Positions 37,874-55,368 of a DNA stretch of 64,000 nt are shown piece by piece. The stretch's first letter is position 1, and the number at the start of each line of letters is the position of its first letter. The position numbers were made by a program, and so were the translations under genes. This stretch comes from Verrucomicrobium sp. BvORR034. Lineage in GTDB: Bacteria; Verrucomicrobiota; Verrucomicrobiia; Verrucomicrobiales; Verrucomicrobiaceae. Location: contig NZ_BATQ01000016.1 of the NCBI RefSeq assembly GCF_000739635.1, positions 1 through 64,000 on the forward strand, in the 5' to 3' direction. Below the pieces are notes generated by a model. It was given only the letters and a program-made list of their open reading frames with translations, did no database searches and was not told where the DNA came from.

Positions 37874-38127
37874 CCACCTGGGAAGCCTGTCAGGTCTCCA
37901 CCGTCTCGTGACGGCCCCGTTCCCATGTCCGTGCTCCTGCTTGATCCATACAGACCCCGCCACATCCGACCACCGGTACCGCGGGGCAGAGACTGCTGCT
38001 GACGGTCTGCGCCAAACCACCGTCCTATCTCATCAACCACCTTTTGAACGCCTGCCCCACTGAGGGGTGGTGCGGATGAGCCTGCATGCCTCTGTGCCAG
38101 GACCAACCTGCTTCTGCGAGTAAATCA

Positions 38128-41100
38128 ATGTTCTTTCCCATATCCTCTGTCTTTCCGTCACGACGCACACGAGCCGGTGCCGGAGCTCCCTTGATCATGC
38201 CCCTGCTGCTCGCGCTGTTGCTGGCGGGGACCTCCCGTTCCTTTGCGGCCCCCTTGTATTGGGATCTCAATGGAGATGTCGCAGGCAGCGGCTCCGCGAC
38301 ACCCACTGGCGTGTGGGACCTGACCACGCAGAACTGGAATGCCACCGCTACAGGCGATCTCACGTTGCCCAGCGTGTGGGCCAACACCGGCACCGACACC
38401 GCCGTCTTTGCCGCAGGCACAGATGCGACTGGCAGCTATGAAGTCACCGTGAACGGAGCGCTGCTCCTCTCTGGCATCACCCTCGAGGAAGGCGGCACCC
38501 TCACGCTGGCGCAGGGCACGGATGGAGCCTTGGGCTTTGGCGCAGTGCAGGCGCAGATCAATGTCGCGACGGGAGCCACGCTGATCTCCAACGTCGCCCT
38601 CTCTGGCACGGCCGGCCTCGCCAAGTCTGGCGCAGGCACGCTGTATCTGAACAACGCCTCTGCTCCCTCCGGTCCGTATCTGGTCAGCTCCGGCACGCTG
38701 GCGATTGGCGACGGCCTGTCCATCAGCGGGACCACGCTGAATCTGGGCGGTGTGGCAGGGCTCTCCTCCACCGTGACCCTGGGCACGGGCACCGTCTATC
38801 ACCTGGCTGGCGCGATCAACTTCCTGAATGCCAATACGCCCCTCGCGGCGCTCATCCAGGGCGGGACCATCACGCTCAATGGCACGCGCAACTTCTCTGC
38901 GCAGAACATCTCCGCGCTGATCGATCTGGAGATTCGCTCGGTCATCGCGGACGGCACGGCTTCCTCCGGGGTTAACAAGACTTCTGCAGGGACGATCCTC
39001 CTCTCTGGCAGCAACACTTACACCGGTGTCACCAACGTGACGGTCGGGACACTGCAGATTTCAGGCGGGGGTTCCATCACCTCCAGTTCTGCCGTGACGG
39101 TGGCGGCTGGCACCACGCTCACCTTTGGTTCCAACACCGACACGGTGGCCGTGAACCGAGTGGGAGACGCGGCCATCATCACACTCACGGCCGGAGGCAA
39201 CAACGATGTGACCAATCTTAACTTCAACGGCTCCGACTTCACCACTCAGACGGTGCAAGTGGAGACCGTCGGTGGATTGGTGATTGCAGGGCAGGCTCGT
39301 TCCTTTGTCTCCCTCAAAGCAGGTGCTGGGGATGAGTACGAGCTGAGACTGGGCTCGCTCACCCGGAGCGGGAGCGCCCTGGGGCTGATCCGCGCAGACG
39401 GCCTGGGCCAGAGTGCGGGAACGGCGGGTGCCGTGAGAGTTTATGTCAGCGAACCGCTCGCCCTTTTTGGCACTGCGGGCGCTATTCTGCCCTGGCTGGT
39501 GGGGGATGTCTCCACCACGGGCACGGGCACCGGATTCCTCACCTATGACTCCACGAACGGCCTGCGTCTGCTGAACTCCAGCGAGTACACGGTGGTCGCG
39601 GCCAACTCCCTGACGGCCGGGGTCAATGCCGTGAAATCCGGCGGCGCCGTGACCCTCTCCAGCTCGGTGCGCGTGAACTCATGGACGAACAGCAACACGG
39701 GAGCGGTCACTCTGGGCGCGGCAGTGACCCTGGGCATTGATAGCGGCGGGCTGCTCTTCACGGCCAACGGAACCTTCACTGCGGGCGTGGTGGATCTGGC
39801 ATCCTACACGCAAGGCATCGTCCATGTGGCGAGTGACAGCAACATCACCGCCACGATCAACAGCGTGCTGGCCGGAGATTCCGGTGTGCTCTACAACGGC
39901 ACCGGCAGCGGCACCAAGATCCTCGCGTTGGGTGGAAACAACACTTTCACCGGTGGATTGACAGTGATGAACGGCACCGTGGAACTGCGCAGTGCGGGAG
40001 GGCTCAACACCACCGGGGTGAACTCGCTCAACATGCTGGGCGGCACATTGCGACTCAATGGCAACAGTGTGACAGTCTCATCGTTGGATGGAGTCGGGAC
40101 GGTGATCAACAACTCCGCCACTCTCAACACCCCCAGCACACTCACCGTCAATGGCGGCGGCACTTTCACGGGCAGCCTCAACAATGGATCGACTGAAGCG
40201 CTTGCGCTGACGAAGAAGGGAAGTGCTGCCCTTGTGCTGGGCGGTGCCAATACCTACACCGGAGAAACCATAGTGGAGGAGGGGATTCTCCACGTGAACC
40301 AGCAGGGAAACGCACCGGGCACCAATGGTTCACTCGCGAACACCAGTGGCATCACAGTGAAGCAGGGCGGCACTTTCAGGATCAACAACGGCAATGCCAC
40401 CAACAACAGTGGCAACCGGGTGAATGACGCGGCAACTCTCACCCTCGCAGGAGGCACGTTCTTTTACGGCATCGGCGGCAACAATGCCATTGCCTACAGT
40501 GAGACGATTGGAGCACTCCACTTGCAGGCGGGATCGAATACGATCACCACCCAGGCGTCGGACGGTACCTCAACCTTCACCTTCGCCAGCTTCGGCACAC
40601 GAGCTGCTGGTGCCACCGTGAACTTCACTGGTGGCAGCCTCGGCACCGCGCAGAACAAACTGGTCTTCACCAGCGGAGTCGCAGACGGCTTCCTGGGTGG
40701 CTGGGCCACGAACGGCAACGAGTTTGTGAAGTACGTCACCGGCACCGGCATCATCGCCATGAGCGGCTCGGACTATCTCACCACCGCCGCCACGGGCTGG
40801 ACCTCCGCCGTCCACGCCAAGCCCTCGGCCGACCAGACGCTCAGCACCTCCTATGACGTTGCCTCATTGAACCTTGCCGCAGGCATTGATGTGAACCTGG
40901 GGACCAATACCCTGGCCACAGTCAGCGGCGGTTTGATCAAGTCCGGCGGCACAGTGGATGGCACCGGTACCAGCGTCAGCAACATCACGGGCACGGGCAA
41001 ATTGACCGCAGGAAATACAACGGCGGCGGCCGAACTGTTCGTCCGGGTCACCGGGGCCAACCTCATTGTGAGTGCGGTGGTGGGTGACAATGCGGCAGGC

Positions 41101-42990
41101 GGTGCTGTCTCGTTGGTGAAGGCCGGGGCGGGAACGCTCGATCTGAAATCGGCCAATTCCTACACAGGCAGCACCTACTTCAATGAAGGCACGATCCTGA
41201 TCAGCCATGCGGATGCCTTGGGGGTTGGCGGCTCGCTGGTCTTCAACGGCGGCAAACTCAAGTATGCGGATGCGGCGAAGACGTTCGATGCCTCAACAAG
41301 AAGCACCTTGTTCCTGGGCGATGCGATCTTCGATACGCAGACATTCACAGTCACTTTTGCGAATGCGATCGGGGGAGGCGGGAGCGGTCGCTTTATCAAG
41401 ATGGGCTCGGGTGTTCTGAACTTGTCCTCCACCACCAATGCCCTGAACTACGGAGGCACCACACGTGTCACTGAAGGCACGCTGCGCTTCACCGGCACGG
41501 GGGCGGTGCATGGGGTGAATGGATTGATCCTTGGGGGGACGACGGTGAAGGCGGTGCTGGATGTGGGGGCGGGTAATCTCCTGAATCTGAATGGCAACAT
41601 CGCCGCATTCGCCGATGGAAAAGATACCGCGGCTCTGATTCAAAACGGAACCATGGCCCTTAACGGCAGCCGGACCGTGGACGTGGCCCTCAGCGCCGCG
41701 ACGGAGGCCACCAACATCCTGGAAGTCACCTCCACCATCACCAATGGCACCGTGAGCGGCTCCCGCCTGACCAAGACAGGCGCTGGCACCTTGAAGCTCC
41801 TGTCCGACAACGGCTACACAGGCCGCACGGAGATCTGGGATGGGAAGCTGGTGGTGACGGACCTCGAAGCTCTGGGCATCACGACAGGGGACGAGAATGC
41901 TCTCGTACTGGGGAACGCCGCAACGACCGGTGCCTTCAGCTATGAGGGGACGGAAAATGTGTCCTCGAACCGCAAGCTTCTGCTGAACGGCGAAACCGGG
42001 GGCGGAGTATTGCTGGCGGAGAAGACAGGCGCGCTGGACTGGTCCGGGCAGGTGACCATCTCCCAAACCGGAACCAAAACCCTGACCTTGGGAGGGGCGG
42101 CGGCGGCCTCGGTACAGAATCAGGTCAGTGGAGTGATTTCCGACAACCTCGCCGTGCAGGCCACGGTGAATGTGGTCAAGACCGGTACGGCCACCTGGCG
42201 GCTCACCGGGCAGAACACTTATCGCGGCACCACCACCGTGCAGCAGGGCGTGCTCCAGGTCGGTTCCGGTGGCGATGGCAGCAGCCTGAGCCAGGCGCTC
42301 ACCGCAGGCACCACCGGCACTGGGCGCACCACTGTCACGACCGGGGGCGTGGTCAGTGGCACCGGGGTCATCAAGACCGGGCTTACCCTGCAGGGTGGGG
42401 AAGTGCGGCCCGGCGATTCCGTGCTCGCAGGTGCGGACACCTCCTTCGATGCTGGCGGCAAGCTGGGCACGCTCTGGGTGAATGGCGATGTGTTGTTTGA
42501 GAGCGGCACGCTTACCTTCCAGGTGCAGGCGGCCACGGTGCATGTGGCAGCCTTGACCGACTCCGCATCGGAAGGCTACGCCGCAGCCTTGTCCGGGCTG
42601 GGTGCCGACTACGCGGCTGACCTTTCGGCCGCGGTCAACCAGTCCGGATTTCAACACGATCACTTGGAAATAACCGGCTCCTTCACCGCCACCACCAGCG
42701 GGACCAAGTCCATTGTCATCGTCCCCACGGAGGGCGCTACGTTTGCCGCAGGGGACGTGTTCAACCTCGTGGACTGGAACGGGCTTGCCGCGTTTTCATC
42801 GGCCACGCCCACCTTTGTGCTGCCGCAGCTCTCAGACAGCTCCCTCATGTGGGACGCCAGCCTGTTCTCCAGCCAGGGCATTGTGTTTGTCACGCTCGCT
42901 CCCGAGCCCTCGCGTGGGGTGCTGCTGGTCGCCACCTTGTCCATGCTGGTGTTGCGCCGTCGTCGTCCCCGGCAGGCTCAATCTGTGTGA
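38128..42990 (+). CDS. Autotransporter-associated beta-strand repeat protein with PEP-CTERM-type tail
   Basis: This 1620-residue exported protein begins with a signal region (about residues 20-45: APLIMPLLLALLLAGTSRSF ending AAP). The body is a long series of passenger-type repeats, each with a pattern such as LTKTGAGTLKLLSDNGYTG, VKTGTATWRLTGQNTYRGTT and LVKAGAGTLDLKSANSYTGS, as in the autotransporter-associated beta-strand repeat family. There is no C-terminal autotransporter barrel. Instead the end is PEPSRGVLLVATLSMLVLRR plus more Arg, a PEP-CTERM sorting signal (PEP, hydrophobic helix, basic cluster), so surface sorting by an exosortase encoded elsewhere is inferred. The start could also be 38086; 38128 gives a better signal peptide. 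The next gene is a sulfatase. Confidence 0.88.
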   Translation: MFFPISSVFPSRRTRAGAGAPLIMPLLLALLLAGTSRSFAAPLYWDLNGDVAGSGSATPTGVWDLTTQNWNATATGDLTLPSVWANTGTDTAVFAAGTDATGSYEVTVNGALLLSGITLEEGGTLTLAQGTDGALGFGAVQAQINVATGATLISNVALSGTAGLAKSGAGTLYLNNASAPSGPYLVSSGTLAIGDGLSISGTTLNLGGVAGLSSTVTLGTGTVYHLAGAINFLNANTPLAALIQGGTITLNGTRNFSAQNISALIDLEIRSVIADGTASSGVNKTSAGTILLSGSNTYTGVTNVTVGTLQISGGGSITSSSAVTVAAGTTLTFGSNTDTVAVNRVGDAAIITLTAGGNNDVTNLNFNGSDFTTQTVQVETVGGLVIAGQARSFVSLKAGAGDEYELRLGSLTRSGSALGLIRADGLGQSAGTAGAVRVYVSEPLALFGTAGAILPWLVGDVSTTGTGTGFLTYDSTNGLRLLNSSEYTVVAANSLTAGVNAVKSGGAVTLSSSVRVNSWTNSNTGAVTLGAAVTLGIDSGGLLFTANGTFTAGVVDLASYTQGIVHVASDSNITATINSVLAGDSGVLYNGTGSGTKILALGGNNTFTGGLTVMNGTVELRSAGGLNTTGVNSLNMLGGTLRLNGNSVTVSSLDGVGTVINNSATLNTPSTLTVNGGGTFTGSLNNGSTEALALTKKGSAALVLGGANTYTGETIVEEGILHVNQQGNAPGTNGSLANTSGITVKQGGTFRINNGNATNNSGNRVNDAATLTLAGGTFFYGIGGNNAIAYSETIGALHLQAGSNTITTQASDGTSTFTFASFGTRAAGATVNFTGGSLGTAQNKLVFTSGVADGFLGGWATNGNEFVKYVTGTGIIAMSGSDYLTTAATGWTSAVHAKPSADQTLSTSYDVASLNLAAGIDVNLGTNTLATVSGGLIKSGGTVDGTGTSVSNITGTGKLTAGNTTAAAELFVRVTGANLIVSAVVGDNAAGGAVSLVKAGAGTLDLKSANSYTGSTYFNEGTILISHADALGVGGSLVFNGGKLKYADAAKTFDASTRSTLFLGDAIFDTQTFTVTFANAIGGGGSGRFIKMGSGVLNLSSTTNALNYGGTTRVTEGTLRFTGTGAVHGVNGLILGGTTVKAVLDVGAGNLLNLNGNIAAFADGKDTAALIQNGTMALNGSRTVDVALSAATEATNILEVTSTITNGTVSGSRLTKTGAGTLKLLSDNGYTGRTEIWDGKLVVTDLEALGITTGDENALVLGNAATTGAFSYEGTENVSSNRKLLLNGETGGGVLLAEKTGALDWSGQVTISQTGTKTLTLGGAAAASVQNQVSGVISDNLAVQATVNVVKTGTATWRLTGQNTYRGTTTVQQGVLQVGSGGDGSSLSQALTAGTTGTGRTTVTTGGVVSGTGVIKTGLTLQGGEVRPGDSVLAGADTSFDAGGKLGTLWVNGDVLFESGTLTFQVQAATVHVAALTDSASEGYAAALSGLGADYAADLSAAVNQSGFQHDHLEITGSFTATTSGTKSIVIVPTEGATFAAGDVFNLVDWNGLAAFSSATPTFVLPQLSDSSLMWDASLFSSQGIVFVTLAPEPSRGVLLVATLSMLVLRRRRPRQAQSV

Positions 42991-46809: not shown

Positions 46810-47835
46810 ATGACGCGACGAGTTGAACAGGTGGAAGCCGATCCCCGGCACGTCAGTCTCGTGGCCCTGCCAGACGCGGTCATCTCCACCTTGACGGGCA
46901 TCTTCGATGTCTTGAACGCCTTCTCGTTCATGGATCTGCCGGTCCCCAAGAACCCTTTCAAAGTGGAGATCGTGGGGGAGTCAGCCGGCCCGTTGCAACT
47001 CGCCAGTGGGGTGCCGGTCAGTGTGCAGCGCGAGATTGCGGACATCCCCACCACCGACATCGTCATCGTGCCCTCCTTCCTGCTTCCGGCAGAGGGTTGG
47101 ACCACGGGGCGCTACCCTGCCCTGGTGGATTGGTTGAAGCGCATGCACCAGGGTGGGGCCGTGCTCTGCTCCGCCTGTTCCGGGGTCTTTCTGCTGGCCG
47201 AGACGGACCTCTATTTTGGCAGAGACGCGACGGTGCACTATGGCTACGTCCAGGCGTTCGAGCGCACGCATCCCACCGTCCGCATTCACCCTGAGCGGGT
47301 GCTCACCGTGTCCGGAGATCGGGATGAACTCATCTGCTCCGGTGCGTCCATGAGCTGGCATGACATGGCACTCTACCTCATTGCCCGCTTCGTCGGGGCC
47401 ACCGCCGCCCACGAGATCGCGCGCACCTTCGCCCTCCAGTGGCATCAGGATGGGCTCACTCCCTACATGGTCTTCGACGGTCGGCGAGACCACGGCGATG
47501 CGGAGATCGAAAGCGCCCAGAAATGGCTGGTGAAGAACTTCACCCTCGCCCAGCCAGTGGAGGAGATGATCAAACGCTCCCGCCTGGCGGAGCGCACCTT
47601 CAAGCGCCGCTTCACCCAGGCCACCGGGCTGGCCCCGCTGGCCTATGTGCAGCGCCTGCGGATGGAGGAGGCCAAACGACGGCTGGAGCGCACGGACACC
47701 CCGGTCGATGAAATCAGCTGGCAGGCCGGGTATGAGGACGCCGCTTTCTTCCGACGGCTCTTCAAGCGCACCACCGGCCTCGCCCCCGGAGCGTACCGCA
47801 AACGCTTCCGGATTCCCGATTTCGCCCGGTCCTGA
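46810..47835 (+). CDS. GlxA-type AraC-family transcriptional regulator
   Basis: The 341-residue regulator has an N-terminal DJ-1/PfpI-like domain (residues about 15-190). Cys in VLCSACSGVFLLAE sits at the nucleophile elbow. The C-terminal AraC helix-turn-helix pair (residues about 235-335) includes KRRFTQATGLAPLAYVQRLR and DEISWQAGYEDAAFFRRLFK. Such regulators sense unknown small molecules and usually activate a neighbour. The divergently transcribed methyltransferase, 145 bp away, is the obvious candidate target. The downstream neighbour is the Verru_Chthon cassette with its own promoter. Confidence 0.9.
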   Translation: MTRRVEQVEADPRHVSLVALPDAVISTLTGIFDVLNAFSFMDLPVPKNPFKVEIVGESAGPLQLASGVPVSVQREIADIPTTDIVIVPSFLLPAEGWTTGRYPALVDWLKRMHQGGAVLCSACSGVFLLAETDLYFGRDATVHYGYVQAFERTHPTVRIHPERVLTVSGDRDELICSGASMSWHDMALYLIARFVGATAAHEIARTFALQWHQDGLTPYMVFDGRRDHGDAEIESAQKWLVKNFTLAQPVEEMIKRSRLAERTFKRRFTQATGLAPLAYVQRLRMEEAKRRLERTDTPVDEISWQAGYEDAAFFRRLFKRTTGLAPGAYRKRFRIPDFARS

Positions 47836-48065: not shown

Positions 48066-48785
48066 ATGTTCTCCAAACTTCCCCCTCGTACCGACACCTC
48101 TTCTACCCGCAGCCGGAAATCGCTGCGTTGCCGCCTTGCCGGGGGCTACACCATGGTGGAGATGCTGGCCGTGATCTCCGTGGTGGCCGTTTTGTCCGGC
48201 ATTTCCATCCCCGCGATGCACTCGCCCACCGCCGCTGCGTCCCTCAGCACCAGCGCGCGTGAGTTCTCGAACCTGATCAGCCTGGCCCGCAGCGAGGCGA
48301 TCGCCCGCCACACCGTCATCCGTTTCGCCGTCGCCACCGAGGTGACGGACGGCAGCAACACCCAGCTGCGCAAGGCCAGCCTCTGGGAGTGGAATGACGA
48401 GTCCCAGAAGTACGTCCAGCTCACCGCCTGGCAGAAGCTGCCGGAAGGTGTGGCACTGGAACCGGCTCTGCCGGAGTACATCCGCTCCTCCTCCTACGCC
48501 CAGGCCGATGGGGCCTCAGTTCGAGGTGATTACGTCACCGCCCAGGTGGGCGGCGCCAGCTTCGCCAGCCCGGATGGCGAGACCAAGATGCACTACGTCG
48601 AGTTCCTGCCCTCCGGCACCGCCCGGATCCCCGGCAGCTCTGGTCGCAATGCCCTCTTTGTCCTCGCCCCTGCCTCGGTGAACCCCGATGGCTCTTATCT
48701 CTACCACCAGGGCCGGGAGGCCGCGAACTGGGCCCAGGTCAACGTGGATACGTTGACCGGCCGTGTCCGACTCTATCGCCCATGA
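48066..48785 (+). CDS. Verru_Chthon cassette protein D (pilin-like)
   Basis: This 239-residue protein has a class III (prepilin) signal. After a basic leader, the cleavage and methylation region reads GGYTMVEMLAVISVVAVLSG near residue 28, followed by a globular beta-rich domain. Size and position match the Verru_Chthon cassette D family and resemble FimT or GspH minor pilins. It would be processed by a prepilin peptidase and sit in the inner membrane or a pseudopilus. It is first in a four-gene operon under the conserved promoter and leader. The stop overlaps the next start (ATGA). The cassette's function has not been established to my knowledge. Confidence 0.85.
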   Translation: MFSKLPPRTDTSSTRSRKSLRCRLAGGYTMVEMLAVISVVAVLSGISIPAMHSPTAAASLSTSAREFSNLISLARSEAIARHTVIRFAVATEVTDGSNTQLRKASLWEWNDESQKYVQLTAWQKLPEGVALEPALPEYIRSSSYAQADGASVRGDYVTAQVGGASFASPDGETKMHYVEFLPSGTARIPGSSGRNALFVLAPASVNPDGSYLYHQGREAANWAQVNVDTLTGRVRLYRP

Positions 48786-49327
48786 ATGTGAAGTCAGTCC
48801 CTTCTACGACGGCCCGCCGCGGATTCACTCTGACCGAGATTGTCCTCTGCGTAGCCATCATCTCCACCGTGCTCGTCTCGGTGGTGGGCATCCTGCCAGT
48901 GGGCCTGGATGTATCCCGCAAGGCGGTGAACCACACCGTGGTGGCGACGGTGCTGGAAGATCTCTACAACCGCTTGCAGGGCCAGCGCCTGCAGGCGGGA
49001 GCCGCCACCTTCAGCCCGGCTTACTTTGATGATCTGGGCGTGTATCTGCCTTCGCCAGAAGACGGCGCAGATCTGGCAACCATTGAGCGCTACCGCACCC
49101 GACGCACTTACCGTGCCGAGGTGGTGATTACGGACTGGAACCCAGCCCCGGCCAACACCAGCAAGCTGCACGCTGTGCGTGTGAAACTTTCCTGGCCCCT
49201 GGACGGCAACGGCAATCCAGTGGGGCCCGACAATCCCAAAGCGGATGTGACCTTCGGTGTCACCTCCCTGGCTGGACAAGACTGGCAGGTCATCGACCCC
49301 CAGTTCCAGCCGAAGATCGAGCACTAA
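48782..49327 (+). CDS. Verru_Chthon cassette protein B (pilin-like)
   Basis: The 181-residue protein has a prepilin N-terminus, RRGFTLTEIVLCVAIISTVL, with the consensus G-F-T-L-x-E (Glu at mature position 5). A short globular domain follows. It matches cassette protein B and resembles PilV or GspI. It is coupled to the preceding gene by an ATGA overlap and lies 12 bp before the next. Confidence 0.88.
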   Translation: MNVKSVPSTTARRGFTLTEIVLCVAIISTVLVSVVGILPVGLDVSRKAVNHTVVATVLEDLYNRLQGQRLQAGAATFSPAYFDDLGVYLPSPEDGADLATIERYRTRRTYRAEVVITDWNPAPANTSKLHAVRVKLSWPLDGNGNPVGPDNPKADVTFGVTSLAGQDWQVIDPQFQPKIEH

Positions 49328-49339
49328 GCCCCACCTGCC

Positions 49340-50416
49340 ATGTCTCCACATCACCATCCTGGCGGCGTCCAGGCAGGGCGGATTGCGCCCAGATTTTCCC
49401 CCTCGACCGGACGCGCCTTCTCCGGCTTCTCGCTCATTGAGCTGCTGCTCTCTGTCTCACTCCTGGCCATCCTCCTCATCGTGCTGACGTCCTTCACGGA
49501 CGCTGCCCACCGCGCCTGGCGGGAAGGCCAGAGCCGCACGGAGACTTTCCAGAGCGCCCGCACCACCCTGGAACTCATGAGCCGGGAAATCACGCCCGCC
49601 GTGGTGGATACCCGCACCCAGTTCGTCATCTCCCAGGGTTCCCAGTTGACCACACGGGGAGCGCTGAATGTGGCGCCCAATTCACCTGCGGTCCTCTGGA
49701 TGGCACCACTGGGTGCGAATGGAGACATGCGCTGCGTCGGTTATTACCTCTACCGCGATGAGGCGCGCAAGTTCCACCGGCTCAAGCGCATCTTCATCTC
49801 GCCCACGCTGCCCCCTGTCGGCAACGCCACCGTGGGGGCTCCGTCACCTTATTTCCCGAAATCCGTCAACCTCGCCAATCCTCGCGATCCCTCCCTGCGC
49901 ACCAGCCCGATCAATGCGGACTGGTTCCTCCAGAACTGGGATGCCAAGGCCTTTGATGAGGAGGATCCCACCAATCAGGACGTGGTGGTCTCCACTGCTG
50001 CGGACGGCGTGGTGGCCTTCTGGATCCAGCCGCTGGATCTGCTTGGCAATCCCATCCCCACGGTCAAGGATGATCCGAATCACCCGGGGTCCGAACTCCT
50101 CTACAACTCTGCCGCCTATTTCCAGGTGGCCACCACGACCAAGTTCGACAACGGGAAGAGCTTCAGCTACCTGAGCCAGACTGAGCAGACCATGAAGGGC
50201 AACCGCGTGCCCGCTTCCGTGGACATCACGGTCGTCACTCTGGACAGCGCCACGCTCGACCGCGGCCTCACCTTGCCTGTCCAGACCAATGTTTACGAAA
50301 CCCGCGTGCTCAATGTGGAGAAATCGGTCAACCGGTTTGAGGAAGACCTCCGGGCCCTCAACATCTACAACGCACGCACCTTCACCACCCGCGCCAAGCT
50401 CATCAATGGAAACTAA
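49340..50416 (+). CDS. Verru_Chthon cassette protein C (pilin-like)
   Basis: The 358-residue protein carries a 30-residue leader and the prepilin motif GFSLIELLLSVSLLAILLIV. A larger globular domain follows, with TLELMSREITPAVVDTRTQF just after the helix, as in PilW and GspJ proteins. It matches cassette protein C. Its last 11 bases overlap the next gene's start. Confidence 0.88.
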   Translation: MSPHHHPGGVQAGRIAPRFSPSTGRAFSGFSLIELLLSVSLLAILLIVLTSFTDAAHRAWREGQSRTETFQSARTTLELMSREITPAVVDTRTQFVISQGSQLTTRGALNVAPNSPAVLWMAPLGANGDMRCVGYYLYRDEARKFHRLKRIFISPTLPPVGNATVGAPSPYFPKSVNLANPRDPSLRTSPINADWFLQNWDAKAFDEEDPTNQDVVVSTAADGVVAFWIQPLDLLGNPIPTVKDDPNHPGSELLYNSAAYFQVATTTKFDNGKSFSYLSQTEQTMKGNRVPASVDITVVTLDSATLDRGLTLPVQTNVYETRVLNVEKSVNRFEEDLRALNIYNARTFTTRAKLINGN

Positions 50417-53400
50417 AAAACCAGCACGTCAGAAGGCCCGTCGCCGTGAATCCGGCGCCGCGCTGATCATGACCCTGTTCATCGTCGGAGTGCTTACCAT
50501 CCTGGTGGTGGGCTTCCTTTCCACCATGCAGACCGAGCGCCAGGCCGCCGGTGCTTATGAGAGCTCCCAGCGCACCAAGCTGGTGGCCCAGGGGGCCGTG
50601 AGCCATGCCATCGAGCTTCTAAGAAACAACATCCCCGACCCCGCGCGTCTCAGTGAGGGGCCGGCGCAGGCCCCTGCAGAGAACTGGGTGACGAATCCTG
50701 GCCGCCTGACCCTTATCCGGCCCGGCCAGCCGGTGCGGTACGTTCCCCTTCACACCGGGGAGGTGACCGTGCAGCCACCCACCGGGGTGCTGCGTGATGC
50801 GGAGTCTGTGAACCTCAACAAGCCTCTGCCAGGAAGCACCACGCCTGCCATCGTGCCCGCCGCCACTGGTAGCACGACGCCGCCTGAGATGCGGGTGAAG
50901 TGGGTCAACTTGTTGCGTGATCCTTCCGCTGCTGCCGGCCCGGAGAACCGCTTGAGCGCACGTTATGCCTTCTGGCTGGATGATGAAACCGCGCGCCTCA
51001 ACTTCAACACGGCCATCGGCAAGCCCGCGCCCGGCACCGACAACCGCTTTACCAAGCAGCTGGAAGGCGGGTTCATGCCGCCCATCTTCCTGCGGGGCGG
51101 CGATGACACCACCTCGGGTGATGGCAAGCGCACGTGGGGCCTCGGCAAACCGCAGTCGGTGAACCTGGACGTGCTGTTCAGCGATCCGACCAAGCTGATG
51201 CACGACAAGCTGCTGGCGCAGACGTTCCTGAACGGTTTTGCCCGCTTCCCGGAGGCCATCATGGACTACGCGGATGTGGCCGACCCCAAGGCCTGGTACG
51301 AGGAAAACAAGTTCAACCTCACCTTCTACAACCGCAGCCCTGAGTTCAACGCCTTTGGCCGGTCCCGGCTTTTCACCAGCTACATCCCCCTCTCCCTGGA
51401 GGCCGGTCCCAGCTATCAGCTTCCCTTCATCTATGACCCCAGCTCCACCAACGGTGCGATCACTCCCAAAGGGGTGGAAGGCACCCTGGAGGAGGGGACT
51501 CTCGCCTCTGGCCAGTTGAAGGACGATCAGATCCTGAACCTGAACTCCCTCATGGGTTTCTTCGGAGTGAACGGGGCGGACATTGCCGGACCTGAAGGCT
51601 ACCTGGCGGACAAGGCGAACATGGTGAACCGCAACCAGATCCGGATGCTCATGGACTACTTCGGCAGGAAGTGGCCGGGCTATGATCGTAGTTTCCTCGA
51701 TAAGTACGGCTACCTGGGCTCCTACCAGATCGCGCTCAACATCCTGCAGCAGGCCCGCATGGCCACCACGCAGCTGGATGGTGGTGTGGCGGATTTCAGC
51801 ACGGCCTATGCTGCCCGCTCCACGAGCGTGAACTTCTTCCCCAACTCCGGAGAGCTGGCCGGCGCGGCGCCGGAGCGCTTCTACTGGCGCGTCAAAGATC
51901 CGGACACGAACAAAGTCGTGCTCATGCTGCCGCAGACCCCCGGCCCGCACATCACGGAGCTGCGTCTCTTTGTGCAGGCCACGAACCCCGATCCCGCGCC
52001 GAAGAACAACGCGCCTACGACCGAGAGCTCCCGCTACATCAAGTACTGGTACGAGGTGGAGTACTACATGCAGCCCTTTGGCCCCATCGTGGATCTGAAG
52101 GAGTTCCCCACCCGCATGGATTACTTTGAAATCACGGCCAAGGGCGGCGGGAAGAACCCCAGCCAGCAGTTCGGTGCCACCACCGCAGAAGATCCTCGCA
52201 ATGACCGCCAGTGGCATAACAAGTTCATGAACCTGCTCGCCACCTATCCAGCGGCGAACACGCTGATCGGGCCCAAGGGGGCCAAGCTCGAAGGCACTGC
52301 GGTGCCCAACCGCGTGGTGGTGAAGAGCCCCGAGTTTGCCATCGGCAAGTTCCAGCGTGTGGACAATGACAACCCGCCCACCAACAAGAGCGATGCTCCC
52401 GCACGCAAGGATGACAAGATCACGGACCTGACCCCGGCCCAGCTGACCAACATCTGGGATCCCGTCATCTTCGACAGCTCCGTGAACGCGGGCACGGCCA
52501 AGGTCTCCATCCGCTGGCGTCCCGGTCAGGGCACCTTGGGCAATGAGAACCGTCCGCGCCAGATGATCCCGCTGGGACTGACCCCAGATGACACTTTGAA
52601 GGTGGATCTCACCGTCGATCTCAAAGACGTGGGCACGCCCAAGGTGGTGTCCTGGCAGATCGCGGATCCGAACCTGAGCTCCGATGCCGCGCAGTGGGTC
52701 ATGACCGGCCCGGGCAAGGAGAACAAGATCGGCACGCCCGGCAAGATCAATGCGGGAGAGCCAGCCGAGGACTCCAGTGAGAAGAGCAAGTTCCGCTCCA
52801 TCCAGCGGGCACCTGATGGGGCCAAGATCTCCGGCTACAACTATGACCGTCCGGATGAGTACGTCACCACCAGCCGTGTTTCCTCGCCCGGCTACTGGTC
52901 CCTGCTGCACACCGGCATGCAGTCCAAGACTCCATGGAGGACATTGAGCCTGGACAAGGCGGATCCGAGTGAGGGGCCTCCCGACTGGTTGCTGCTAGAT
53001 CTCTTCGGCGCCACTTATCCTATGGCGCATGACCAGTGGAAGATCGACAAGAAGCTGCCGGACAGCTTCTCCACCGCCTCCTACATGGGCAGCACGGCGG
53101 GCCAGGTGAATCTCAACTCCCGCATCTATCCGCGGAACGATCACTTCAACATCCCTGATCGGCATCTCCCGCTGGAGGCGGTATTCAAGTACCTGCGCTC
53201 TGACTCAGATGTCACCAGCCTGGTGGACAACATCACCAGCTACCAGACGGACAGCCAGGTCTTTGACTACGTGGGCGAGCTTGCAGAAGTCCCCGGGTAT
53301 GACGGTGGCAACACCTCCGCGTGGGCCAGGGAGTCCCTCCTGCGGAACATGGCCGGCGTGCTCACCACCCGCTCGAACACCTTCGGCATGTGGGGCGTGG

Positions 53401-53861
53401 CCCAGGTGCTTCAGAAGAGTTCGAGGAACATTCAGCATGATGTCTATGAGGCGGGCGACCGCGTGGTCGGTGAGAAGCGCTTCTACGCGCTGATCGAGCG
53501 CTACGTCTGGACCGGGCGTGATGGCGTGCCGGGCAACGGACACCTCAGCAATGTGGGCACCTGGGACCGGACCGCGCAGCAGACCGCCCGCCTGAGCACG
53601 GCCGATGGCATGACGGACACGCTCTTCCAGCTGCCTGGCTCACCGCCGCTCAAGCGCTCCGGAGATGGCGACCGCCTCGACCTGGATGCAGCGGGGCGCT
53701 ACCCCAAGTTCGACGGTCCGGAGCCGGTGGGCATGGATGTTTATACCGCCTCCGCCCTGGGATCGGTGGAGTACACCTCCAGCTCGCTGGAAGACGCCTA
53801 CAACCCCCCGCAGGCGGCCATCAAGTACCGCGTGGTTTATTTCAAATACCTCGATGAATAG
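50406..53861 (+). CDS. Verru_Chthon cassette protein A (large PilX/GspK-like protein)
   Basis: The 1151-residue protein begins with a basic leader and a hydrophobic helix, ESGAALIMTLFIVGVLTILV, in the style of PilX and GspK, which lack the usual Glu5 methylation pattern. A very large extracytoplasmic part follows, including ARYAFWLDDETARLNFNTA near residue 183, NLNSLMGFFG and LNSRIYPRNDHFNIPDRHLP. Size and context match cassette protein A. At more than three times the length of GspK, it is probably the functional end piece of the complex. Start 50406 is inside the end of gene C; codons upstream in frame look non-coding. Confidence 0.88.
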   Translation: METKKPARQKARRRESGAALIMTLFIVGVLTILVVGFLSTMQTERQAAGAYESSQRTKLVAQGAVSHAIELLRNNIPDPARLSEGPAQAPAENWVTNPGRLTLIRPGQPVRYVPLHTGEVTVQPPTGVLRDAESVNLNKPLPGSTTPAIVPAATGSTTPPEMRVKWVNLLRDPSAAAGPENRLSARYAFWLDDETARLNFNTAIGKPAPGTDNRFTKQLEGGFMPPIFLRGGDDTTSGDGKRTWGLGKPQSVNLDVLFSDPTKLMHDKLLAQTFLNGFARFPEAIMDYADVADPKAWYEENKFNLTFYNRSPEFNAFGRSRLFTSYIPLSLEAGPSYQLPFIYDPSSTNGAITPKGVEGTLEEGTLASGQLKDDQILNLNSLMGFFGVNGADIAGPEGYLADKANMVNRNQIRMLMDYFGRKWPGYDRSFLDKYGYLGSYQIALNILQQARMATTQLDGGVADFSTAYAARSTSVNFFPNSGELAGAAPERFYWRVKDPDTNKVVLMLPQTPGPHITELRLFVQATNPDPAPKNNAPTTESSRYIKYWYEVEYYMQPFGPIVDLKEFPTRMDYFEITAKGGGKNPSQQFGATTAEDPRNDRQWHNKFMNLLATYPAANTLIGPKGAKLEGTAVPNRVVVKSPEFAIGKFQRVDNDNPPTNKSDAPARKDDKITDLTPAQLTNIWDPVIFDSSVNAGTAKVSIRWRPGQGTLGNENRPRQMIPLGLTPDDTLKVDLTVDLKDVGTPKVVSWQIADPNLSSDAAQWVMTGPGKENKIGTPGKINAGEPAEDSSEKSKFRSIQRAPDGAKISGYNYDRPDEYVTTSRVSSPGYWSLLHTGMQSKTPWRTLSLDKADPSEGPPDWLLLDLFGATYPMAHDQWKIDKKLPDSFSTASYMGSTAGQVNLNSRIYPRNDHFNIPDRHLPLEAVFKYLRSDSDVTSLVDNITSYQTDSQVFDYVGELAEVPGYDGGNTSAWARESLLRNMAGVLTTRSNTFGMWGVAQVLQKSSRNIQHDVYEAGDRVVGEKRFYALIERYVWTGRDGVPGNGHLSNVGTWDRTAQQTARLSTADGMTDTLFQLPGSPPLKRSGDGDRLDLDAAGRYPKFDGPEPVGMDVYTASALGSVEYTSSSLEDAYNPPQAAIKYRVVYFKYLDE

Positions 53862-53904: not shown

Positions 53905-55368
53905 ATGAAAACTCGCACCTTCCTGCTGGCGCTCGCCGCTCTCGGCACGCCTGGCATCTCGCCGTGGATCGCTCCCGCTGCCACCGCCGCGGATGCCAAG
54001 AAGCCGAACGTCCTCGTCATTGTGGCCGATGACCTCGGTTACGGTGAGCTGGGCATTCAGGGCAATGCCCAGATCCCCACGCCCAACATCGACAGCATCG
54101 GCAAGAACGGAGCCCGCTTCACCAGCGGCTACGTGAGCGGCCCGTACTGCAGCCCCACCCGCGCCGGACTCCTGACCGGCAAGTATCAGCAGCGCTTCGG
54201 ACACGAGTTCAATCCCGGCCCCGCCCAGAACACGGGTGAGGACGTGGGACTTTCGTTGCAGGAGAAAACCCTGGGGGACCGCTTCAAGGCCGCCGGCTAC
54301 AGCACCGGCTGGTTTGGCAAGTCCCACCTGGGCAACAAGCCGGACTTCCATCCGCTCAAGCGCGGGTTCGATGAATTTTACGGCTTCCTCGGCGGCGCAC
54401 ATGATTACCTCGATCCCAAGGCAGACACCCAGAACCCCATCCTCCGCGGCACCGAGCCGGTGACGACGGCGGAGTACACGACTGAGGCCTTCGCCCGCGA
54501 GGCGGTGGGCTTCATCGAGAAACACAAAGCAGATCCCTGGCTGGTGTACCTGCCCTTCAATGCGGTGCACAACCCGCTCCAGGCTCCGGAGAAGTACCTC
54601 GCCCGCTTCAACGACGTGCAGGACCCCAAGCGCAAGGCCTTCTCCGCCCTGCTGTCTGCCCTGGATGACGCTGTCGGCAGCGTGCTCGGCAAGGTGCGTG
54701 AACTCGGAGTCGAGGAAAATACGCTCGTCTTCTTCATCAGCGACAACGGCGGTCCGACCCGCCAGACGACCTCCAGCAACGGTCCGTTGCGCGGCTTCAA
54801 GGCCCAGACCTGGGAGGGTGGCGTGCGCGTGCCCTGGTTGGTCCAGTGGAAGGGCAAGATCCCGGCTGGCCAGACGCTCGACCAACCGGTCATCCAGCTC
54901 GACATCCTGCCCACCGCCCTCGCGGCCGTGGGGGCTCCCGCCTCCGCAGACTGGAAGCTGGACGGCGTGAATCTTCTGCCGCTCCTCACCGGCGCCAGCA
55001 AAGACGCCCCGCATGACGCGCTTTACTGGCGCTTCGGCCAGCAGATCGCCATCCGCAAGGGTGACTGGAAGCTGGTAAAAGCCCCCGACGATGGCACCCC
55101 GCTGCCCGCCCAGGGCGGCAAGGCCTCTACCGAGGGTGCAGCTCTCTACAACCTCGCCAAGGACATCGGTGAAAGCACCGACCTCGCCTCCCAGGAACCG
55201 GAGAAGGTGAAGGAACTGGCTGCTGCTTGGGACGCTTGGAATGCCCAGCTCGTGGAGCCCAAATGGCGCCCGGCAGGCGGTGGCAAAGGCCGACAGCAGG
55301 GTCAGGGCCAGGGTGGTGGCGCTCGTCGGAAGGCGGCCGCAGCCGCGGCAGCCCCAGCCGCTCAGTAG
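53905..55368 (+). CDS. Secreted sulfatase (second copy)
   Basis: The 487-residue enzyme has a signal peptide (residues 1-29, cleaved near TAADA). Its sulfatase domain has NVLVIVADDLGYGELG, the formylglycine motif CSPTR at Cys82, GKSHLG (most relatives have GKWHLG) and FISDNGG. A low-complexity C-terminus rich in Gly, Gln, Arg and Ala (last 30 residues) is odd and may be an extension for retention. It is 43 bp after cassette gene A, so probably in the same transcript, and is followed by a terminator. The other sulfatase in the window has a parallel place after the PEP-CTERM protein. Confidence 0.93.
   Translation: MKTRTFLLALAALGTPGISPWIAPAATAADAKKPNVLVIVADDLGYGELGIQGNAQIPTPNIDSIGKNGARFTSGYVSGPYCSPTRAGLLTGKYQQRFGHEFNPGPAQNTGEDVGLSLQEKTLGDRFKAAGYSTGWFGKSHLGNKPDFHPLKRGFDEFYGFLGGAHDYLDPKADTQNPILRGTEPVTTAEYTTEAFAREAVGFIEKHKADPWLVYLPFNAVHNPLQAPEKYLARFNDVQDPKRKAFSALLSALDDAVGSVLGKVRELGVEENTLVFFISDNGGPTRQTTSSNGPLRGFKAQTWEGGVRVPWLVQWKGKIPAGQTLDQPVIQLDILPTALAAVGAPASADWKLDGVNLLPLLTGASKDAPHDALYWRFGQQIAIRKGDWKLVKAPDDGTPLPAQGGKASTEGAALYNLAKDIGESTDLASQEPEKVKELAAAWDAWNAQLVEPKWRPAGGGKGRQQGQGQGGGARRKAAAAAAAPAAQ

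Follow-up and report, generated by a model that had tools for sequence, protein, structure and literature searches.

A multiplied GspH-I-J-K-like gene cassette in Verrucomicrobium sp. BvORR034: candidate cargo-dedicated pseudopilus tips

A four-gene cassette of Verrucomicrobium sp. BvORR034 encodes proteins that, judged by profile comparison, are equivalents of the minor pseudopilins GspH, GspI, GspJ and GspK of type II secretion systems (T2SS), with a giant protein in the GspK position. Complete copies of the cassette occur 23 times in the genome of 8.58 Mb, many of them beside genes for PATR-repeat and/or PEP-CTERM proteins. In our best model, which we hold at a probability of roughly 0.6, these cassettes would supply alternative, cargo-dedicated pseudopilus tips to a shared engine. 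The copy analysed here lies in a window of 64,000 nucleotides, the whole stretch of DNA under study (positions 1 to 64,000 of contig NZ_BATQ01000016.1, contig C185 in our numbering).

The four cassette proteins and their T2SS counterparts

The window cassette and the gene upstream of it have the following features.

46810-47835, + strand: AraC/GlxA-like regulator upstream of the cassette, named from sequence reading
48066-48785, + strand: D, GspH-like minor pseudopilin, 239 aa
48782-49327, + strand: B, GspI/PilV-like minor pseudopilin, 181 aa
49340-50416, + strand: C, GspJ-like minor pseudopilin, 358 aa
50406-53861, + strand: A, giant GspK-like protein, 1151 aa
50454-50639, + strand: GspK-type leader end and N-terminal helix of A (residues 17-78), without Glu5; matches NF037980 GspK at residues 16-78 (hhalign P = 96, 67 columns)
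50976-51014, + strand: GspK motif inside A, LDDETARLNFNTA (residues 191-203), which 27 of 28 A proteins have at this alignment position

D, B, C and A are arranged head to tail, with a 4-bp overlap of D and B, a 12-bp gap between B and C and an 11-bp overlap of C and A, for which the mechanical ORF start at 50289 was replaced by the ATG at 50406. Reading of the sequence confirmed prepilin leaders with Glu5 in D (...RLAGG/YTMVE, a slash marking the end of the leader), B (...TTARRG/FTLTE) and C (...AFSG/FSLIE), and in A a basic leader that ends in G17 and is followed by a long hydrophobic helix without Glu5 (...RRRESG/AALIMTLFIVGVL), as an earlier sequence-only reading of this DNA had noted. The predicted prepilin cleavage sites follow G14 of B, G17 of A, G27 of D and G29 of C. 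The closest relatives of A come from Verrucomicrobium sp. BvORR106 (95% identity), the nearest named relative among those found, and from a Chthoniobacteraceae metagenome-assembled genome (MAG; 57%). The order of the AraC/GlxA-like gene relative to the cassette is kept at the corresponding BvORR106 locus (L091), and this gene is a possible regulator of the cassette.

Against reference profiles of GspG, H, I, J and K taken from T2SS loci of the same phylum, profile-profile comparison gave GspH as the best match of D (P = 99.0 over 156 columns), GspI as that of B (P = 95.1), GspJ as that of C (P = 97.6) and GspK as that of A (P = 94.0). Each of the four proteins is thus best matched by its own T2SS counterpart, which bears out the earlier proposal of a GspH-I-J-K set and identifies D, B, C and A as the probable equivalents of GspH, GspI, GspJ and GspK. 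When the first 30 residues were cut off, the pairs D-H, B-I, C-J and A-K were still the best ones, at weak probabilities of 33, 1.6, 6 and 15, and the homology rests mainly on the N-terminal helix. A member-wise scan with NCBIfam models matched 22 of 23 D members to GspH; D of the window alone scores 25.4 bits against GspH and 23.2 bits against Pfam GspH (cut-off 21), and A of the window scores 33.4 bits against GspK. The cassette proteins lie below the curated equivalog cut-offs for GspH, I, J and K, as do the T2SS H, I, J and K proteins of the same genome. Searching PDB sequences with D retrieved pilin N-termini, and searches with A, B and C returned nothing useful; single-chain AlphaFold models of A (pLDDT 30, 4 sequences) and C (pLDDT 35, 3 sequences) were unusable.

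At 3.4 times the length of the GspKs of the same genome (340 and 315 aa), A agrees with the earlier estimate of more than three times. Inside the protein, a second GspK motif, DDETARLNFNTA, is retained, which marks A as a giant GspK. The consensus of this motif, DE-x-x-(K/R)-(I/L/V)-N-(I/L/V/F)-N-T-A, matches intact GspKs of the phylum (e.g. DEASKLNLNTA), and its mean best score is 5.3 bits in A proteins versus -4.5 in shuffled copies. A resembles a GspK enlarged within its insertions by several hundred residues, a reading that we infer for the middle of the protein; the inserted domain of GspK is thought to cap the pseudopilus (PMC7248040). The Pfam model PF03934 (T2SSK) was rejected as a T2SS marker: it is unspecific, matching helix-hairpin proteins as well, and it misses the second GspK, so it served only for gathering GspK sequences.

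The same proteins could be viewed as type IV pilus (T4P) tips of the FimT-PilV-PilW-PilX type that prime surface pili, with A as a large tip adhesin, comparable to PilY1 on a PilX-like base, and the PATR/PEP-CTERM neighbours as separate, co-regulated surface proteins. H/I/J/K and FimU/PilV/PilW/PilX are homologous sets in which PilV is the counterpart of GspI (PMC7248040), T4P-like loci are present in the genome, and B members match PilV (11/23) more often than gspI (5/23), with a further 6/23 matching XpsI. However, C members match gspJ in 18 of 25 cases, and A members match GspK in 25 of 28, never PilX and, outside the Verru_Chthon families, no other family at all; the internal GspK motif recurs in 27 of the 28, and PilX lacks the GspK insertion (PMC7248040). 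In the window cassette the K position is taken not by a small, PilX-like protein lacking GspK features but by A, with 1151 aa and a match to GspK only. We therefore consider a pilus tip unlikely.

Copy number, engines and processing

The 23 complete cassettes, collected by a TIGR02600 search and by reading of the surrounding DNA, confirm that the four-gene set is far beyond chance. Three extra A genes accompany them, a tandem pair (L060) and one solitary A (L071). The tandem pair, at L060:4379-13451, consists of two full-length genes and adjoins both a complete cassette and a PATR gene. Ten cassettes have the order A-B-C-D, eight, including that of the window, D-B-C-A, three B-C-D-A and one B-C-A-D, and one is rearranged; C comes straight after B in 22 of the 23. 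The sequence-only reading had relied on D-B-C-A following H-I-J-K, which holds for the window and seven other cassettes, but with only 8 of 23 so ordered and gene order varying, order alone is weak evidence.

Across cassettes, the pairwise identities of the four proteins correlate (Spearman 0.63-0.82, reached by 0 of 2000 permutations), indicating that the four diverge in step and that the cassette evolves as a unit. A had been expected to be a variable end piece, yet by mean identity it is the least diverged of the four (0.298, compared with 0.292, 0.259 and 0.250 for the others); only in length, from 899 to 1659 aa, does it vary most.

In related operons (L138, L142 and L162), several D-like genes stand ahead of B-C-A, and one of them may encode a dedicated major pseudopilin. 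Widespread in the phylum are A-like genes of about 1000-1400 aa that stand alone, with no B, C or D recognisable (L128, L129, L132, L134, L136, L139 and others).

Contig C185 contains no matches to a T2SS-type ATPase or secretin, in keeping with the earlier remark that no engine lies near the cassette. Elsewhere in the genome, NCBIfam models recognised GspE, K, D, F, G, H, I and J at one T2SS locus (C24), and there are a second T2SS locus (C116) and several pilus-type loci. At C81:33349-34133, a GspE-type ATPase seems to be split over two reading frames, by a pseudogene or a sequencing error.

One prepilin peptidase match was found in the window's genome. In the phylum, an A-like N-terminus occurs in 110 of 194 genomes, usually in a gene of 700-1500 aa, and a prepilin peptidase in 187 of 194. 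All 110 A-positive genomes have the peptidase and all seven peptidase-negative genomes lack A, so that cassette genomes without a peptidase, which would have spoken against the earlier proposal, number 0 of 110. In our model, the cassette proteins would be processed by the peptidase of their genome.

Cassette neighbours and candidate cargo

In the window's genome, 18 of 53 cassette neighbours are PATR-repeat and/or PEP-CTERM genes, compared with 7 of the 142 control genes, which come from these loci too (Fisher p = 6e-7). A similar excess was found in related genera (15/49 versus 6/157, p = 1e-6), and no enrichment was seen for a broader collection of divergent A-like genes from other parts of the phylum (3/79 versus 13/306). 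Counting PATR alone, about 12 of the 41 strongest genes are cassette-adjacent against 0.28 expected, a figure that presumes 7000 genes; under harsher assumptions p stays below 1e-8. PATR/PEP-CTERM genes directly adjoin 17 cassette loci of this genome other than the window, and four cassettes (L056, L058, L061 and L064) have no evident cargo neighbour. None of the scanned PATR proteins has an autotransporter barrel, and so they need another way out. PEP-CTERM proteins were discovered in Verrucomicrobium spinosum (PMC1569441). An exosortase could sort them with no pseudopilus involved.

At the window cassette a PATR/PEP-CTERM gene is not directly adjacent, and a sulfatase occupies the slot. Two candidate cargo genes lie in the window.

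53905-55368, + strand: sulfatase carrying a signal peptide, 43 bp beyond the end of A; PF00884, 201 bits
38086-42990, + strand: PATR-repeat giant (PF12951, 108 bits) of 1634 aa that ends in a PEP-CTERM-like tail; a scan detected no autotransporter barrel; second candidate, not adjacent to the cassette

The sulfatase gene is found in the same place at the BvORR106 locus, and in the nearest paralogous cassettes (L071, L092 and L093) A is immediately followed by a PATR protein, in the slot that the sulfatase takes in the window. This position makes the secreted sulfatase the more likely candidate cargo of the window cassette, rather than a PATR/PEP-CTERM protein. The PATR gene at 38086-42990 was demoted since it is not beside the cassette in BvORR106. 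A second PATR giant lies just past the window end (L088:1314-8390, about 65315-72391 of the contig), which places the window cassette between two PATR genes, neither of them adjacent.

Two further arrangements were seen in other genomes. At L193:7461-13847 (- strand) of a related genome, a PATR-repeat and PEP-CTERM protein and A share one stop-free frame of 2129 aa, a single case that may be a natural fusion, read-through or an assembly error. In distant relatives, a fifth gene lies directly downstream of A (L241:1237-2010, L242:9587-10366, L243:9020-9790, L244:717-1391 and L245:8531-9241); its products are predicted to be exported, measure 224-259 aa and have no Pfam match, and four of the five have a C-terminal V-D-E-(L/I)-(N/D)-P-type motif in common.

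The neighbour association could also have arisen if the cassettes were a redundant paralogous family of tips without cargo specificity, carried along in co-duplicated surface-gene islands. PATR genes, like the cassettes, make up a large paralogous family, the tandem extra A genes surround a PATR gene (L059/L060), and several cassettes have no cargo-like neighbour. Yet the association is seen again in several genera, under different gene orders and on one flank of the cassette or the other, and the neighbours vary widely in size and repeat content, a pattern unlike that of simple co-duplication; this makes redundancy improbable. A role in polysaccharide export or gliding, as thought for cyanobacterial Hps pseudopilins, with PEP-CTERM proteins as matrix partners, is hardly credible even though C members match HpsC (15/25) and HpsB (5/25) and PEP-CTERM proteins track exopolysaccharide production (PMC1569441), given that the surroundings of the window cassette showed no glycosyltransferase cluster and that N-terminal cross-matches are common among pilin families.

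In the dedicated-tip model that we favour, D, B, C and A, as GspH, GspI, GspJ and GspK equivalents, would be cleaved and would assemble a tip in the inner membrane with the giant A on top. A T2SS (or T4P-like) engine, together with a major pseudopilin, both encoded elsewhere, would push this tip through a secretin. In Pseudomonas aeruginosa, the four minor pseudopilins form a quaternary tip with the GspK subunit on top, and this tip is described as critical for substrate recognition and binding (PMC6211770). Each of the roughly two dozen tips would most likely be dedicated to one cargo. In many cases this would be the PATR-repeat and/or PEP-CTERM protein encoded next door, which in the cases scanned lacks an outer-membrane barrel; the giant A would recognise the cargo, for the window perhaps the sulfatase. 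As to the alternative tip complex with an engine elsewhere that the sequence-only reading had suggested, the H-I-J-K homology and the engine-free surroundings speak for it, and assembly and the use of a shared engine are what we infer. More tentatively, and with the odds somewhat against so broad a picture, Verrucomicrobiaceae might combine one or two T2SS engines with some two dozen interchangeable tips, each with a giant GspK that recognises a neighbouring PATR-repeat/PEP-CTERM protein or enzyme, and specificity would be set by the tip, not the engine.

The way in which a T2SS selects its cargo has long been an open question. With tips multiplied two-dozen-fold, and many of them beside a probable cargo, cassette swaps would make tip-cargo specificity directly testable. 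The model also offers a proposed function for four families named as 'cassette proteins' and a possible outer-membrane route for barrel-less PATR-repeat proteins.

Comparison with known systems

Among the nearest named families are the Verru_Chthon families of NCBIfam, all four of which are matched by adjacent genes in the one window cassette: D by TIGR02596 (53.8 bits, curated cut-off 70), B by TIGR02598 (44.6 bits, cut-off 51.4), C by TIGR02599 (65.3 bits over the N-terminal 75 positions, cut-off 256.5) and A by TIGR02600 (131.3 bits, cut-off 332.3). Since every score is below its cut-off, the window cassette is a divergent relative and no formal member, whereas many paralogues in the same genome score far above; A of the window falls in a separate clade with C81, BvORR106 and the Chthoniobacteraceae MAG. 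The families were already named, and the association with PATR/PEP-CTERM genes is new here. A literature search of incomplete coverage returned nothing on Verru_Chthon, TIGR02600, PATR with Verrucomicrobia or PEP-CTERM with pseudopilin, and no work linking the cassette to PEP-CTERM or assigning it to H-I-J-K.

GlyGly-CTERM/rhombosortase is a precedent for C-terminally anchored exported proteins in T2SS species (PMC3237569), but the sorting tail differs and a pairing of cassette and cargo is not described there. The T4P core minor pilins FimT/FimU-PilV-PilW-PilX belong to the same evolutionary set, and B often matches PilV; the cassette differs in that A is GspK-like rather than PilX-like and pilus genes are absent nearby. 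Cyanobacterial Hps pseudopilins (NF038303, NF038304) are likewise a pilin-like set tied to secretion that C members match, and to our knowledge they are not multiplied and have no giant GspK-like protein. With the T2SS set H-I-J-K (XcpU-V-W-X) the cassettes share prepilin leaders and a K protein that lacks Glu5; the profiles match one to one, a GspK motif is kept inside A, and eight cassettes have the H-I-J-K order. The cassettes differ from it in that none of the genes G, E, F, L, M and D lies at their side, in numbering 23 sets per genome versus one set per engine, and in often adjoining PATR/PEP-CTERM genes.
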